In this document: positions 15,807 to 21,120 of the stretch, in pieces
Layout of the letters: each line of letters begins with the position of its first letter
Position numbering within the stretch: the stretch's first letter is position 1
Assembly: GCF_038002345.1 (NCBI RefSeq)
Contig: NZ_JBBOCJ010000001.1
Location: 2,170,001-2,234,000, forward strand
Origin: Paenibacillus sp. FSL M7-0420
GTDB taxonomy: Bacteria; Bacillota; Bacilli; Paenibacillales; Paenibacillaceae
Direction of reading: 5' to 3'
Length of the DNA stretch: 64,000 bases
Made by a program: the position numbers and the translations under genes
The notes under the pieces: generated by a model
What the model was told of the DNA's origin: nothing
Database searches by the model: none
Seen by the model: the letters and a program-made list of their open reading frames with translations, nothing else

Positions 15807-15879
15807 ATCGTGGCGGAAAATGTATGCGAAAACAAACATGTCTTTCAAGGCACAACTCCAGCATAAAAATGAGCAGCAC

Positions 15880-16078
15880 GGAGGTGTGCAGACCAAATGT
15901 AATCGAAAAACCGATCACAATACGCAACGTGGAGGCGAGCGCACCAAATGTAATCGAAAAACCGACCACAATGCGCAGCGTGGAGGCGAGCGGACCAAAT
16001 GTAATCGAAAAACCGATCACAATACGCAGCACGGAGGTGTGCGGACCAAATGTAATCGAAAAACCGACCACAATTGGA
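15880..16078. repeat. Tandem array of four 51-bp units (family II)
   Basis: The core ACCAAATGTAATCGAAAAAC recurs at 15892, 15943, 15994 and 16045, exactly 51 bp apart. Each core contains imperfect inverted arms TGTAATCG and CGATCACA around AAAA. Spacers (CGCArCryGGAGGyGwGCgg type) are conserved, not unique. Because 51 is a multiple of three, several frames stay open on both strands; no ribosome site supports translation. Confidence 0.85.
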
Positions 16079-16167: not shown

Positions 16168-17340
16168 TCAGTTCTGACTGCCGGGCCATGTGTAGGTCTT
16201 GATGATATCCTGGCTGCCGTCCATTCTGTGAAGCTTGAAGGTGAAGACATTGTCAGTACGTCCGGTGAAGTAGATATAGTCTCCCGGGAACATGAAATCG
16301 GGCTGCTCTACCTCGCGCTGGCGCTCTGCACTGAGTAGCTGCTTGTATAACAAAGTCTGCTCACCGGTAGCACGGTCAACTAGGGTCAGGAAGGCGGTGT
16401 CTGTAGGGCGGACCAGCAGAACATCCGGGTAGACGGCTTCGACGTTGTAGTAGACATCCTGGGCAACGGTGGTGCCCAGCAGTTTCGGTAGATTTACGGT
16501 CTCGCTGACCGCTCCGGTTCCATCCTCAATGAGCCTTAGTGTGCGGCCGTCGTTGAAAATCAGCTTGCCGTCAGCCCAGACCGGGGCTGTGCCGAAGGAG
16601 GTATGGATATTCGTATGCCCCTGGCGGATCACACTGTTGTTCTTCACTAGATAGGTGTAATACCCTGCATGTACATGGGGCTCGCCATACGAATTCACGA
16701 CTTGAAGCAGAGTCAGACCGGCAGGTGTGCGCTCGAAGGTGAAATCCACTACATCCAGCCCTCTGCCGAGAACAGCCAGCTTATGTCTGGTGTTCTGCTT
16801 CGTGGTCAAATACAGCTCGCCGCTGTCCAGCGACAGGGAGTACACTCCGCCGTCGAACACTTCCGAATAACCGCGGTACATATGCAGACCATTGGCCCGT
16901 ATCGTATTCGTGGCGGCATCCCATCTTACGGGCCCGCCTTCAAGAGCCGCTACCACAAACTTGACGGGTACATACAGTTGCTTATCCGCCATATAAGGTG
17001 TGCCTCCAAGGGAGACCTTCTTCCCGTCCAGTACGCCGGTGGATTGACCAAGCTTCATGCTGAAGCTTTTGTTCCACCCGCTGAAGGTAGCGGTTTTGTC
17101 TGCATTACTCCACTTGCCCTCAAGACCCATGATTGTGACCAGGTTAGCCGGCATATAAGAGACTCCGTTCTTGATCTGTGCGGTGCCTCCGGCCATGCCT
17201 GATATCCCGCTTCCGTTGCTGTAGGTTAATTGAAGTTGTACCTTCGGGGCGGGCTTGGCCGAAGCCGGAACGGCTTCAGCCCCTCCGGCCAGAGCCAGTG
17301 CAAGTGCGGGGAGGAGTAATAACCTCCGGTTGATCTTCAT
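16168..17340 (-). CDS. Secreted protein with copper-amine-oxidase N-terminal (stalk) domain
   Basis: The 390-residue protein begins with a signal peptide (MKINRRLLLLPALALALAGGAEA, cleavage near ASA-KP). It then has a PF07833-type copper amine oxidase N-like domain (about residues 45-155: GVSYMPANLVTIMG, KQLYVPVKFVVAALEG) and a C-terminal beta-propeller-like region of about 230 residues without named motifs. In Bacillales such domains occur in secreted wall-associated proteins without oxidase activity. The ATG at 17340 has AAAGGA 8 bases away; the ATG three codons earlier is too close to it. It lies downstream of the HTH-TPR regulator and its candidate peptide on the same strand, so it may be part of their regulon or operon. 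Confidence 0.8.
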   Translation of the reverse strand: MKINRRLLLLPALALALAGGAEAVPASAKPAPKVQLQLTYSNGSGISGMAGGTAQIKNGVSYMPANLVTIMGLEGKWSNADKTATFSGWNKSFSMKLGQSTGVLDGKKVSLGGTPYMADKQLYVPVKFVVAALEGGPVRWDAATNTIRANGLHMYRGYSEVFDGGVYSLSLDSGELYLTTKQNTRHKLAVLGRGLDVVDFTFERTPAGLTLLQVVNSYGEPHVHAGYYTYLVKNNSVIRQGHTNIHTSFGTAPVWADGKLIFNDGRTLRLIEDGTGAVSETVNLPKLLGTTVAQDVYYNVEAVYPDVLLVRPTDTAFLTLVDRATGEQTLLYKQLLSAERQREVEQPDFMFPGDYIYFTGRTDNVFTFKLHRMDGSQDIIKTYTWPGSQN

Positions 17341-17377
17341 GTTCGTCATCCTTTCTGCGGGCGCGGCCGCTGCTGGA

Positions 17378-17521
17378 TCAGCCGTCCCCCGTCCCGTGAC
17401 CCATAGGCTGAACCTGGGATTGTACGGTAGTCTCTCTTACAGATTCATAACCCCCCAGGGGGTGAACAGCTATAACGGCCAAGCTACATGACACTAGAAG
17501 CATAATCATTTTTCTTATCAT
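17378..17521 (-). CDS. Candidate quorum-sensing pheromone precursor (47 residues), overlapping the regulator 3' end
   Basis: On the minus strand an ATG at 17521 opens a 47-codon frame that overlaps the last 38 bases of the HTH-TPR regulator in a different frame and ends at TGA 17378-17380. It has its own strong ribosome site inside the regulator (GGAGAGGTG, 17532-17540, about 10 bases upstream). The product has a secretion-signal layout: basic MIRK, a hydrophobic core MIMLLVSCSLAVIAV, then a polar tail ending in QPMGHGTGDG. That is the form of Phr, PapR, NprX and AimP/AloP-type precursors, whose C-terminal 5-10 residues are exported, matured and re-imported to bind the cognate TPR receptor. 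The mature peptide is inferred to lie in the C-terminal tail. I know of no sequence identity to a named peptide. Confidence 0.65.
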   Translation of the reverse strand: MIRKMIMLLVSCSLAVIAVHPLGGYESVRETTVQSQVQPMGHGTGDG

Positions 17522-18881
17522 TGGATTCTTGCACCTCTCCAATCAGAAGTCTGTATTGCTCTGTCTGTTCCTCAGTGGCTTGATGCCGGAATTGTTCAAA
17601 CAGATTCACACATTTAATGATTATGCTATCACTCTTTATTTTAGCAGAAGATTCCAGACTTTGGAGCAGGAAGCCCATTCCTTCGGGGCGGTGATTGCGT
17701 AAATAATAGTTGGCTAATTCCGCGAGAAAGGTAGAGTACTGGTCGGCCAGGATCTGCTGGTTGTGAAGCTCCCCGAAGTCCTTCAGGTTGGTCCGGTAAG
17801 GGATATAGGAAGGGAACTGTTCAAGCACCTCATCGACATTCCAGGAGAAGCGGTTGGCTGAGATCATAATATGGTACAGGGCAACGAAAATCTCACTGGC
17901 TTGCGGAGCAATATAGGCCACATATTCAGGCAGCGCTCCATGATCACCGGACATCATCCGGTAGAGAAGGGTGTTGGCCGTGCCCCACTCCTGGAATTGG
18001 TCCAGGATGCGCCGGGTGTCTTCCCCTTTTTCACGTATCCAGCTCCTATCCATATATAGAGCTACGTATTTCAGCGCCGATTCATAGTCCCGGAATTCTT
18101 CGCACACGCTTGCCCGCATCAGATGCGAATACAGCGCATAGAAGAATACCGGCTTCTCCGGGCTTTTATCCTGGCGGTCCCTGCGCTGCGATCGGTGCAG
18201 ATGGTGGTAGCTGAGCATGGCAAGGCGGTGCATCTCCTGGGCCAGGGCATCCACCTTGTCCCACTTGTGCAGCGAGTAATAGACATGCATCAGAGCTTTC
18301 AGTCCATCGAGCTGATCCGGCACCTCAAGCCGTTCAATATAACATTCGAACAAAAGAGCAGCCTGGAGGTTGAGTGTCTGGCTGTCTCCGAGGGTAATGC
18401 GGAACAAACGGTACTGGCAGAGGGCCAGCCGCTCGGAATGCTGATACTTCTCGCTTGCGCTGATATTCTTGTAGAGCACGGCCGCCGCTTGCCAGTGATG
18501 CTCCTGGAACAGGTCCTCGGCCACTTCAAAAAGCATCGGAGCGTAGGTTAGGTTGTCCAGCAGATTTTTGACTACAAGCTCAATACAGTCCAGCCGCCCC
18601 AGCTCCGCTGAATTCAGGATGAAGGGGCGCAGCCGCCGCCAGGTTGGTGCCGAATATAAGAAGCACTCATCGACATACATGCTATAGAAATGATCCTCCG
18701 GCAATGACATGCCCCGGGTAATCAATTTCAGGTGGTTCATGGCAATCGGCTGCTGGCCGCTAAGGATACGGCTTAAGGTGCCGGAATTAACGCCGGACAG
18801 AATGGAGAACTGGTTGATGGACAACTGCTGGGAATAGAGATAAGCCTCAAGATGACTGCGAATCGTTGTGAGAGGCTTCAA
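17484..18881 (-). CDS. HTH-TPR transcriptional regulator, RRNPP / AimR-like type
   Basis: The 465-residue protein has an N-terminal lambda-repressor-type helix-turn-helix (about residues 13-45, QQLSINQFSILSGVNSGTLSRILSG). The rest is an all-helical TPR-like array of about 400 residues. This is the architecture of peptide-responsive regulators such as PlcR, NprR, Rgg, AimR and the AimR-like AloR proteins reported in Paenibacillus polymyxa. I start at the TTG at 18881 because GGTGAT lies just upstream and residues beyond it are not family-like; a longer in-frame extension to 19031 would be transcribed through the promoter at 18931-18959. A peptide-precursor ORF overlaps its 3' end, matching receptor/pheromone gene pairs. 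Confidence 0.75.
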   Translation of the reverse strand: MKPLTTIRSHLEAYLYSQQLSINQFSILSGVNSGTLSRILSGQQPIAMNHLKLITRGMSLPEDHFYSMYVDECFLYSAPTWRRLRPFILNSAELGRLDCIELVVKNLLDNLTYAPMLFEVAEDLFQEHHWQAAAVLYKNISASEKYQHSERLALCQYRLFRITLGDSQTLNLQAALLFECYIERLEVPDQLDGLKALMHVYYSLHKWDKVDALAQEMHRLAMLSYHHLHRSQRRDRQDKSPEKPVFFYALYSHLMRASVCEEFRDYESALKYVALYMDRSWIREKGEDTRRILDQFQEWGTANTLLYRMMSGDHGALPEYVAYIAPQASEIFVALYHIMISANRFSWNVDEVLEQFPSYIPYRTNLKDFGELHNQQILADQYSTFLAELANYYLRNHRPEGMGFLLQSLESSAKIKSDSIIIKCVNLFEQFRHQATEEQTEQYRLLIGEVQESNDKKNDYASSVM

Positions 18882-18930
18882 GGGATCACCGCCTGACTGA
18901 ATTCCATATTTTGGATTATTGTATATGTGT

Positions 18931-18959
18931 ATAATATAAGTCATTATTCCAATGGTCAA
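18931..18959 (-). promoter_or_regulatory. Sigma-A promoter of the HTH-TPR regulator
   Basis: Read on the minus strand, -35 TTGACC and -10 TATTAT are 17 bp apart, 50 bases upstream of the TTG start. A dyad-like TATACACATATA directly follows the -10 and could be an autoregulatory site. Confidence 0.65.
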
Positions 18960-19048: not shown

Positions 19049-20206
19049 TCAGGCGGTATAAATCCCTGCTTCATTCTTGATCCTGCGGTGCTCGATGACT
19101 TCTTCATAATCTTTAATCAGTCTGTCAAAAATCTGCTCCCAGGAGCGTTGGAGGGCTTGGCGCCGCCCTTCGCGGCCCATTGCGCTCAACAGCAGGGGCC
19201 TGGCGGCGGCGGTGCAGATCTGCTCTGCCATGGCTGCCGGGCTGCGCGGCTCGAACAGCATGCCGGTGACACTGGGTGCGATCAGCTCCCGCGTTCCGCC
19301 TGCATCTGCGGCGATCACGGGAAGCCCCGACGCCATGGCTTCAAGCACGACGTTGCCGAAGGTCTCCGTGCAGGAGGGGAAGACGAACAGATCGGCGGAG
19401 GCGTACAGCTCTGCCAGCTCTTCGCCGTGTCTGGCACCGGTGAAGGTGACATTCTCCTGTGCCTGCGATTTAAGCTCAGGCAGCAGCGGGCCATCGCCGG
19501 TAATCACCAGCTGAACCTGCGAACGCACGGACTCCGGCAGGAGCTGCGTAGCCTGAAGGAGGGTGGTGAGATCTTTTTCCGGGGCAATCCGTCCGACATA
19601 GAGCATCATCAGCGCTGCTCCCTTGCCGTAACGTTCCCTGGTCTCTTCGCTTCTTCTCTCCGGCGAGTAGAGGGTACAGTCCACGCCTCTGGACCACAGA
19701 CGCAGCCGGGTGAAGCCCTCCATGCGCAAGCTGGTTAGGGTCTCGCGGGAAGGGGCCAGGACGGCATCGCAGGAACGGTGATACCACTTCATGTATTTCC
19801 AGTAGAGCGGGAGGATTCTTCTCATTTTGTAATATTCGAGGTAACGGTCGAAGTGGGTGTGATAGGAGGCGACATGGGGGATTTGCTGCTTGCGGGCATA
19901 CCGGAGGCCGGTTAAGCCGATATTGAAAGGGGTGGCGAGATGGAGCAGGTCAGGGGCGAACGCAGTCAGTTCACTCTGTATGGAGGACATGCCGGGCAGG
20001 GCCAGCCTGCACTCGGGATACAGGAAAAAGGGGATGCTGGCCACGGGTCTGACAGGATCGGGGTAGCTGCTCTCCGGGGCGGATTTTGGCGTGAACAGCA
20101 GATGATCGATTCCCCGGCGGTGCAGGTGGCCGGTCAGCCGGCCGAGTGTACGGGCAACCCCATTGGTCTGCGGAAGAAAGGTATCCGTGAATAGAGCCAG
20201 ACGCAT
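19049..20206 (-). CDS. GT4 family glycosyltransferase
   Basis: The 385-residue protein is of GT-B fold. The N-terminal Rossmann domain begins MRLALFTDTFLPQTNGVARTL, the phrase typical of GT4 mannosyl/glucosyl transferases acting on lipids. The C-terminal donor domain has YVGRIAPEKDL and the E-x7-E motif FPSCTETFGNVVLEAM (about residues 288-303). The likely role is glycosylation of a membrane lipid or cell-surface glycan using a nucleotide sugar; the acceptor is unknown. The ATG at 20206 has GGGAGGG 6 bases before it. It is divergent from the Pro-rich small gene, with a 10-bp repeat tract between them. Confidence 0.85.
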   Translation of the reverse strand: MRLALFTDTFLPQTNGVARTLGRLTGHLHRRGIDHLLFTPKSAPESSYPDPVRPVASIPFFLYPECRLALPGMSSIQSELTAFAPDLLHLATPFNIGLTGLRYARKQQIPHVASYHTHFDRYLEYYKMRRILPLYWKYMKWYHRSCDAVLAPSRETLTSLRMEGFTRLRLWSRGVDCTLYSPERRSEETRERYGKGAALMMLYVGRIAPEKDLTTLLQATQLLPESVRSQVQLVITGDGPLLPELKSQAQENVTFTGARHGEELAELYASADLFVFPSCTETFGNVVLEAMASGLPVIAADAGGTRELIAPSVTGMLFEPRSPAAMAEQICTAAARPLLLSAMGREGRRQALQRSWEQIFDRLIKDYEEVIEHRRIKNEAGIYTA

Positions 20207-20788: not shown

Positions 20789-21120
20789 GGAAACTAAAGT
20801 TTCCTACTGTAGAAAAGGTATGTGTACATTTGTGAATATGAGTTCTTGGAATGATTCGTAAAATGACCTTGATGCTGAATGTGACTGAGGGCTGAATGTA
20901 TGTGAAAAACAGTACACAATGTGTTCACAAGCAGGCATATGGACCAAATGTATGTGGAAAACAGTATACATTGTGTTCGCAAGCAGGCATATAGACCAGA
21001 TGTATGTGAAAAACAGTATACATTGTGTTCGCAAGCAGGCATATGACCAAATGTATGTGAAAAACAGTATACATTGTGTTCGCACGAAGGTAATCTTATT
21101 CGTCCGTAGGATGATTTTGC
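20789..21120 (+). repeat. Palindromic array C (four 51-52-bp units, family I) with end modules
   Basis: Units start near 20895, 20947, 20999 and 21050. Each unit has arms AATGTATG and a (partly degraded) CATACATT/TATACATT around a TGAAAAACAG loop, plus a conserved spacer of about 26 bp (TGTGTTCGCAAGCAGGCATA). A left palindrome GGAAACTAAAGTTTCC (20789-20804) and a right hairpin TCGTCCGTAGGATGA followed by TTTTG (about 21101-21119) bound the block. Matching end modules bound array F at 41.5 kb. Confidence 0.85.

Follow-up and report, generated by a model that had tools for sequence, protein, structure and literature searches.

The receptor gene and the small frame that overlaps it

The window, i.e., the whole 64,000-nucleotide stretch of the Paenibacillus sp. 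FSL M7-0420 genome analysed here, carries on its minus strand an aloR-like receptor gene (17484..18881), an aloP-like pro-peptide gene (17378..17521) which begins inside the receptor 3' end, and a conserved promoter in front of the receptor (18931..18959). From the data presented below we infer with high confidence that the two genes form a quorum-sensing pair of the AloR–AloP family.

The receptor open reading frame (ORF) starts with a TTG codon at 18881, ends with a TAG at 17486-17484 and codes for a 465 aa protein. Nine orthologous loci were taken around its closest relatives, which are 78-97% identical to it (the 97% one belongs to Paenibacillus silagei DSM 101953). All ten orthologues start at the same place, eight of them with TTG and two with ATG. 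The first-pass annotation, made from the sequence alone, described the product as a regulator with an N-terminal helix-turn-helix (HTH) and tetratricopeptide repeat (TPR)-like helices, and this description holds: HTH_26 of Pfam is matched by 53 out of 54 aligned receptor members (best E 4.3e-6) and TPR_2 by nine of them. The AlphaFold2 model of the window receptor (predicted local distance difference test score 88.9) is wholly helical, has helices spanning residues 7-76 in the HTH region and superposes on TPR superhelices; the C-terminal TPR-like domain used to recognise AloR is present. The window receptor is not named by any model of Pfam or NCBIfam, and the one PHROG that it matches at E<=0.001 has no known function. 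PDB sequence searches returned no RRNPP receptors, the best matches being small HTH regulators (E 0.0022), and scanning of IMG/VR with the receptor found no relatives.

The small ORF starts with ATG at 17521, in a different frame from the receptor, and its TGA codon ends at 17378. The 47 aa product, MIRKMIMLLVSCSLAVIAVHPLGGYESVRETTVQSQVQPMGHGTGDG, begins with MIRK followed by a hydrophobic core, judged to be a signal helix by a hydropathy rule only, and finishes with the conserved tail GHGTGDG (17378..17401 including the stop codon), which is predicted to contain the mature signal. A ribosome site, GGAGAGGTG, is located at 17540-17532 (17532..17540, minus strand), 10 nt before the ATG. Both the 47-codon frame starting inside the regulator end, with an overlap of 38 nt, and its own ribosome site are thus found where the first-pass annotation had placed them.

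The small ORF is present in all ten orthologous loci (window included) as 48 codons with the stop, keeps its overlap and has neither indels nor internal stops. The tail reads GHGTG[DN]G in all ten, and besides the D/N exchange all codon differences in it are synonymous. Expressed as pN/pS (non-synonymous vs. synonymous differences per site), variation across the ten loci amounts to 0.18 for the tail (codons 38-47), compared with 0.69 for the linker (codons 14-37) and 0.42 for the overlap; restricting the set to its eight closest members gives 0.13, 0.53, and 0.19, respectively. The frame is therefore conserved in relatives with a synonymous bias, the lack of which the first-pass annotation had named as a refutation, and this pattern of substitutions indicates that the small ORF is a gene under selection as a protein. 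At E<=0.01, just one cluster in a database of 5.77 billion sequences matches it, and Pfam, PHROGs, and NCBIfam gave nothing stronger than E 0.085. Such near absence from protein collections is probably due to gene callers skipping overlapping short frames, which suggests that peptides of this kind are largely missed there.

To see how often receptors of this type are accompanied by such a frame, 122 of them were surveyed: 13 from this genome, 29 from the genus-search loci and 80 further ones picked among the matches listed. A fixed rule was applied: a length of 25-65 aa, a charged N terminus followed by a hydrophobic core, and a start codon between -100 and +150 from the receptor stop. Signal-like ORFs were found at 94 of the 122 receptor ends vs. 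ten of 78 non-receptor gene ends. With an ATG and a ribosome site the counts were 86 vs. none, and with HG among the last 14 residues 90 vs. none; the figure of 90 is somewhat favourable, since HG had been noticed in the same data before it was chosen as a criterion and the survey omitted 22 of the listed receptors that are of the L007 type (L007 and L131 of this type have no peptide ORF). As the receptors are homologous, these counts are not independent events. The start of the peptide lies exactly at -38 nt in 72 of the 90 cases, and in 72 of the 90 [A/G]GGTG stands 10 nt ahead of it. In this genome, nine out of 13 receptors have an HG peptide. The 32 receptors without one, including L003, L007, L009, and L012, are called orphan receptors here. 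Some of them (L003, L007) occupy the second place in tandem alo loci, and in L102, L151, and L158 a short frame is retained where the peptide normally lies.

The dual-coding overlap (17484..17521, minus strand) includes the receptor stop: TAG at 17486-17484 provides the last base of peptide codon 12 and the first two bases of codon 13 (Cys-Ser). Among the 88 receptors whose end is overlapped by an HG peptide (two of the 90, L035 and L042, were set aside for their offsets), 86 terminate with TAG, as do all 72 with the offset of -38. The corresponding figures are 15 of 32 for receptors lacking an HG peptide and 31 of 94 for gene ends from the window and the neighbouring loci, the 94 including 16 AloR genes. 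In the named plasmid and phage records TAG was found in 11 out of 12, the exception being a phage with no peptide by the rule. At the junction TAG is read as Ser (or Arg) in the peptide frame, while TAA and TGA would give Lys/Asn or Asp/Glu within the signal helix. The preference for TAG can therefore be explained by the receptor stop lying inside this helix, and Ser 13 of the peptide by the receptor stop codon in the overlapping frame. The preceding residue is freer: Cys-Ser is found in 46 of the 72 peptides at the -38 offset, the other 26 having F, G, V, A, T, or L in place of Cys. We suggest that a TAG stop of the receptor may serve as an inexpensive sign that a pair is still functional.

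The promoter module and diversity of the tails

A sigma-A-like promoter upstream of the regulator, also part of the first-pass description, was confirmed by a consensus scan: TTGACC at 18959-18954 is separated by 17 nt from TATTAT at 18936-18931. The ten orthologous aloR promoters are strongly conserved from -35 through -10. A wider comparison used a non-redundant set of 36 receptors, all pairwise identities being below 70%; 24 of them have a 17-nt-spaced promoter scoring <=2, and the 12 without such a promoter were dropped. Because TTGACC served as the search string, bias is absent only from columns that lie outside both hexamers. The spacer played no part in the selection; within it, T, G, A, and T are found at positions 8, 9, 14, and 16, counted from the beginning of -35, in 20, 22, 22, and 23 of the 24 promoters, respectively. 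TA precedes -35 (20 and 19 of 24, respectively), and beyond these two bases most columns are close to background. Matches to the TTGACCnnTGGnATAnT-N6-TAnnAT pattern with at most one mismatch occur in this genome at five places, all of them upstream of aloR genes (the window one and L002-L005); two mismatches add one further place elsewhere, and the reversed control gave none.

We propose that this conserved module may be the AloR operator. The proposal would fit the cross-regulation of alo genes reported for Paenibacillus polymyxa by Voichek et al. (PMC7425212, cited throughout from excerpts of its text). The excerpted main text makes no mention of such a motif, which may have been published elsewhere. 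In a scan with a shorter pattern, again at 0-1 mismatch, the module was missing from the four named plasmid and phage loci scanned (L078-L081) and from the spo0E-like loci L056, L057, and L060. Another candidate element, a GTTCAC box upstream of -35, was rejected: it is present in six of the 24 non-redundant promoters, which is within the shuffle range, and its genome search gave 22 places vs. ten in the reversed control.

Among the 90 peptides 57 different tails were counted, and 89 of the peptides contain HGxG. We searched for receptor columns which track the variable residue x in receptor pairs matched for overall identity. The ten best ones (198, 202, 204, 246, 255, 258, 261, 304, 311, and 333) all fall within 190-340 and are located on, or one residue past, the helices 187-203, 245-262, 287-310, and 328-345, with none between them. 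These are alternate helices, which in a TPR array would line the groove. For comparison, 25 other peptide positions had one to seven of their ten columns in 190-340, some of them with contrasts equal to or larger than those of x, which points to the weight of descent in this covariation. For the same reason the shuffled-label significance, very strong at first, was discarded. Among 42 disjoint closest pairs, the ten columns, which had been selected on the same data, differ in 36% of cases when x differs (21 pairs) and in 9% when x is the same (21 pairs); for all columns the values are 24 and 12%. The residue before HG tracks partly other columns, and residues after HGxG track mostly columns 365-382, outside the 190-340 region. 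Overall, certain receptor positions on alternate TPR helices appear to track x of HGxG, which, confounded by descent as it is, we consider suggestive, not proof.

Assignment to the AloR–AloP family

The receptor-then-peptide layout was recognised in the first-pass annotation as being of the RRNPP type, and AloR–AloP was rightly named among its relatives. The AloR–AloP system was originally described in P. polymyxa ATCC 842 (PMC7425212). The window receptor is 41% identical over 98% to a receptor encoded on a plasmid of this strain (L078), with which, and not with AloR13, the comparison was made; its plasmid-record matches from P. polymyxa as a whole are about 38-42% identical. This exceeds the 30% identity over 80% mutual coverage used to assign receptors to known clusters (excerpts of PMC10075063). 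By the method of PMC7425212, homologues of at least 250 aa in ATCC 842 count as AloR, so the plasmid receptor is presumably among AloR1-16 of that work. In a midpoint-rooted tree of 48 receptors, the window and P. polymyxa receptors share one clade of 43 (support 100/99), the window receptor being placed inside its ten-member orthologous group (100/100). With the cluster rule exceeded and the clade shared, the pair is best filed as a new locus of the known AloR–AloP family; it is not new as a system, contrary to the first-pass annotation.

The resemblance extends to the details. AloR13–AloP13 of P. polymyxa likewise consists of an HTH-TPR receptor and an overlapping pro-peptide (32-50 aa in this family) with a signal helix, and numerous paralogues per genome are common to both, as is occurrence in Paenibacillaceae (PMC7425212). 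Of 34 plasmid records with a receptor match, 31 are named Paenibacillus or Brevibacillus. Judging by the primers used in the same study, AloR13 starts with MENATTIR, and AloP13 starts in the same frame relation to the receptor end as observed here; KPLTTIR follows the start codon of the window receptor. The mature AloP13 signal is SHGRGG, to which a reporter responded from 10 nM (PMC7425212). Thus the tail that had seemed unfamiliar at the first pass is of the AloP HGxG type. The window pair differs from AloR13–AloP13 in its tail (GHGTGDG), in belonging to a different orthologous group and in having no adjacent spo0E-like gene. Neither AimR nor the receptors of NprR–NprX and PlcR–PapR appeared among PDB sequence matches of the window receptor, and the peptides of the latter two systems are different. 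As for a prophage nature of the locus, flanking genes are shared by the nine orthologous loci; a systematic prophage search was not made. Searches of 100 genomes with the AloP13 pro-peptide and with a pattern of the first AloR13 codons found nothing, while the SHGRGG tail pattern gave no AloP among the matches read, and no locus so matched coincided with a receptor match.

Several observations weigh against the assignment and the operator proposed above. Taken alone, the window receptor is recognised by Pfam neither as HTH nor as TPR at E<=0.1. Seven of 11 peptides in the named records, including that of the ATCC 842 plasmid, lack a terminal HG. The other eight receptor loci of this genome are devoid of the promoter module at 0-1 mismatch, and the sharing of the module by related promoters may alternatively reflect common descent.

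By analogy with Alo13 and RRNPP biology, AloP with its N-terminal signal helix would be secreted and cut outside the cell, freeing about the last six or seven residues (HGTGDG or GHGTGDG). Peptides of RRNPP systems are re-imported by the oligopeptide permease, and the freed AloP peptide would take the same route. It would then bind to AloR, within the concave groove formed by its TPR superhelix, and alter the action of the receptor at promoters. The likeliest direct targets would be the alo promoters themselves via the shared TTGACCnnTGGnATAnT module, which would result in autoregulation and crosstalk between paralogous channels. Tentatively, and with the balance of odds still against it, one could imagine about nine Alo channels with different tails operating in parallel in each cell, with x read by the ten receptor columns, located on the inner helices of consecutive TPRs, at least five channels wired together via the promoter module and the genes of each pair locked by TAG. 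The locus adds a signal gene that had escaped annotation, together with its receptor, to a communication family which is known but has received little study, and offers testable predictions as to the residues that free the signal, the receptor positions that set specificity and the promoters that respond.

Neighbouring genes, alternative readings and minor observations

Just downstream of aloP lies a gene for a stalk-domain protein (Cu_amine_oxidN1, 16168..17349, minus strand), and upstream of aloR a GT4 glycosyltransferase gene (19049..20206, minus strand). The first-pass annotation suggested one of them as a target. A specific control over the stalk gene would resemble that of Alo13, which acts on its downstream spo0E-like neighbour (PMC7425212); it is in keeping with the stalk gene, which has the same orientation, beginning some 30-40 nt beyond aloP and standing beside the pair in six out of nine other orthologous loci. 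No terminator was listed by the consensus scan between the two genes on that strand, so the two may be co-transcribed in the window. However, the stalk gene is absent from three of the nine loci (L050-L052), all of which keep the pair, and in two stalk-less loci a hairpin, seen by eye, directly follows aloP. On that strand, the consensus scan also listed nothing promoter-like from the start of aloR down to the stalk gene, and at 0-1 mismatch the shared promoter module is limited to aloR promoters in this genome. We therefore consider such control unlikely. GT4 is missing from two of the nine loci (L050 and L051), again with the pair kept. Given these absences, neither gene can be an obligate target or an obligate part of the system. 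Stalk domains are also common (57 matches in this genome), and three of five spo0E-like genes in this genome adjoin other AloR paralogues, not the window pair; spo0E-like neighbours have been described for other Alo loci (PMC7425212). In L049 (4604-5799), the stalk gene matches as two overlapping pieces, as if frameshifted there. Two flanking genes bracket the pair identically in the nine other orthologous loci; we call them zinc phospholipase-like and UbiD-like.

Much less probable is that the small protein acts by itself, as a membrane peptide, toxin-like protein or lipoprotein, instead of being a signal precursor. It does have a hydrophobic helix and a Cys at position 12, in the LVSC context which presumably resembles a lipobox, and the Cys-Ser pair recurs in most peptides at the -38 offset. 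But Ser 13 is imposed by the receptor stop, Cys is replaced in over a third of these peptides, and it is the far tail that is most conserved, as expected of a signal that is cut off. The culture medium of P. polymyxa, moreover, was found to contain fragments of nine AloP peptides (PMC7425212).

A distinct RRNPP family, related to AloR yet separate from it, has still less in its favour. It would account for the mere 38-42% identity to the plasmid receptors of P. polymyxa and P. peoriae, which make up a separate clade of eight rows with seven of the eight peptides devoid of the HG tail. Nevertheless, this identity exceeds the 30%/80% rule, the window and P. polymyxa receptors lie together in the well-supported clade of 43 in the midpoint-rooted tree, the overlap and the TAG stop are identical, and AloP13 itself carries an HGxG tail. 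A chance frame next to an ordinary HTH-TPR regulator, which the single cluster in the large database and the weak profile matches would allow, is scarcely credible given the ten intact orthologues with purifying selection in the tail, HG peptides at 90 of 122 relatives vs. 0 of 78 controls, and TAG in 86 of 88 receptors.

AloR-like genes were also encountered in less usual surroundings. In Brevibacillus phage SecTim467 (L079, 1067-4502), an AloR-like receptor (27% identical) is accompanied by a second HTH-TPR gene; a spo0E-like gene lies just upstream of the receptor, at whose end no signal-like ORF was found by the rule. An AloR-like protein of 518 aa, P0116, has a precomputed Spo0E-like domain (PF09388), reflecting either a fusion with the usual neighbour or an ORF read-through.

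Two dispersed tandem repeats are located near the locus. The first is a 51-bp array at 15873-16074 (genome 2185873-2186074), a 23-base piece of which has 444 matches in the genome at <=3 mismatches (289 forward, 155 reverse; none in the reversed control). Among the matches listed, forward ones extend up to 3.43 Mb and reverse ones begin from 3.79 Mb, as if oriented by replication. The second repeat, of 52 bp, is at 20895-21084; a 30-base piece of it occurs at 34 genome places (15 forward, 19 reverse), with orientation split by position like that of the 51-bp repeat, mostly but incompletely.
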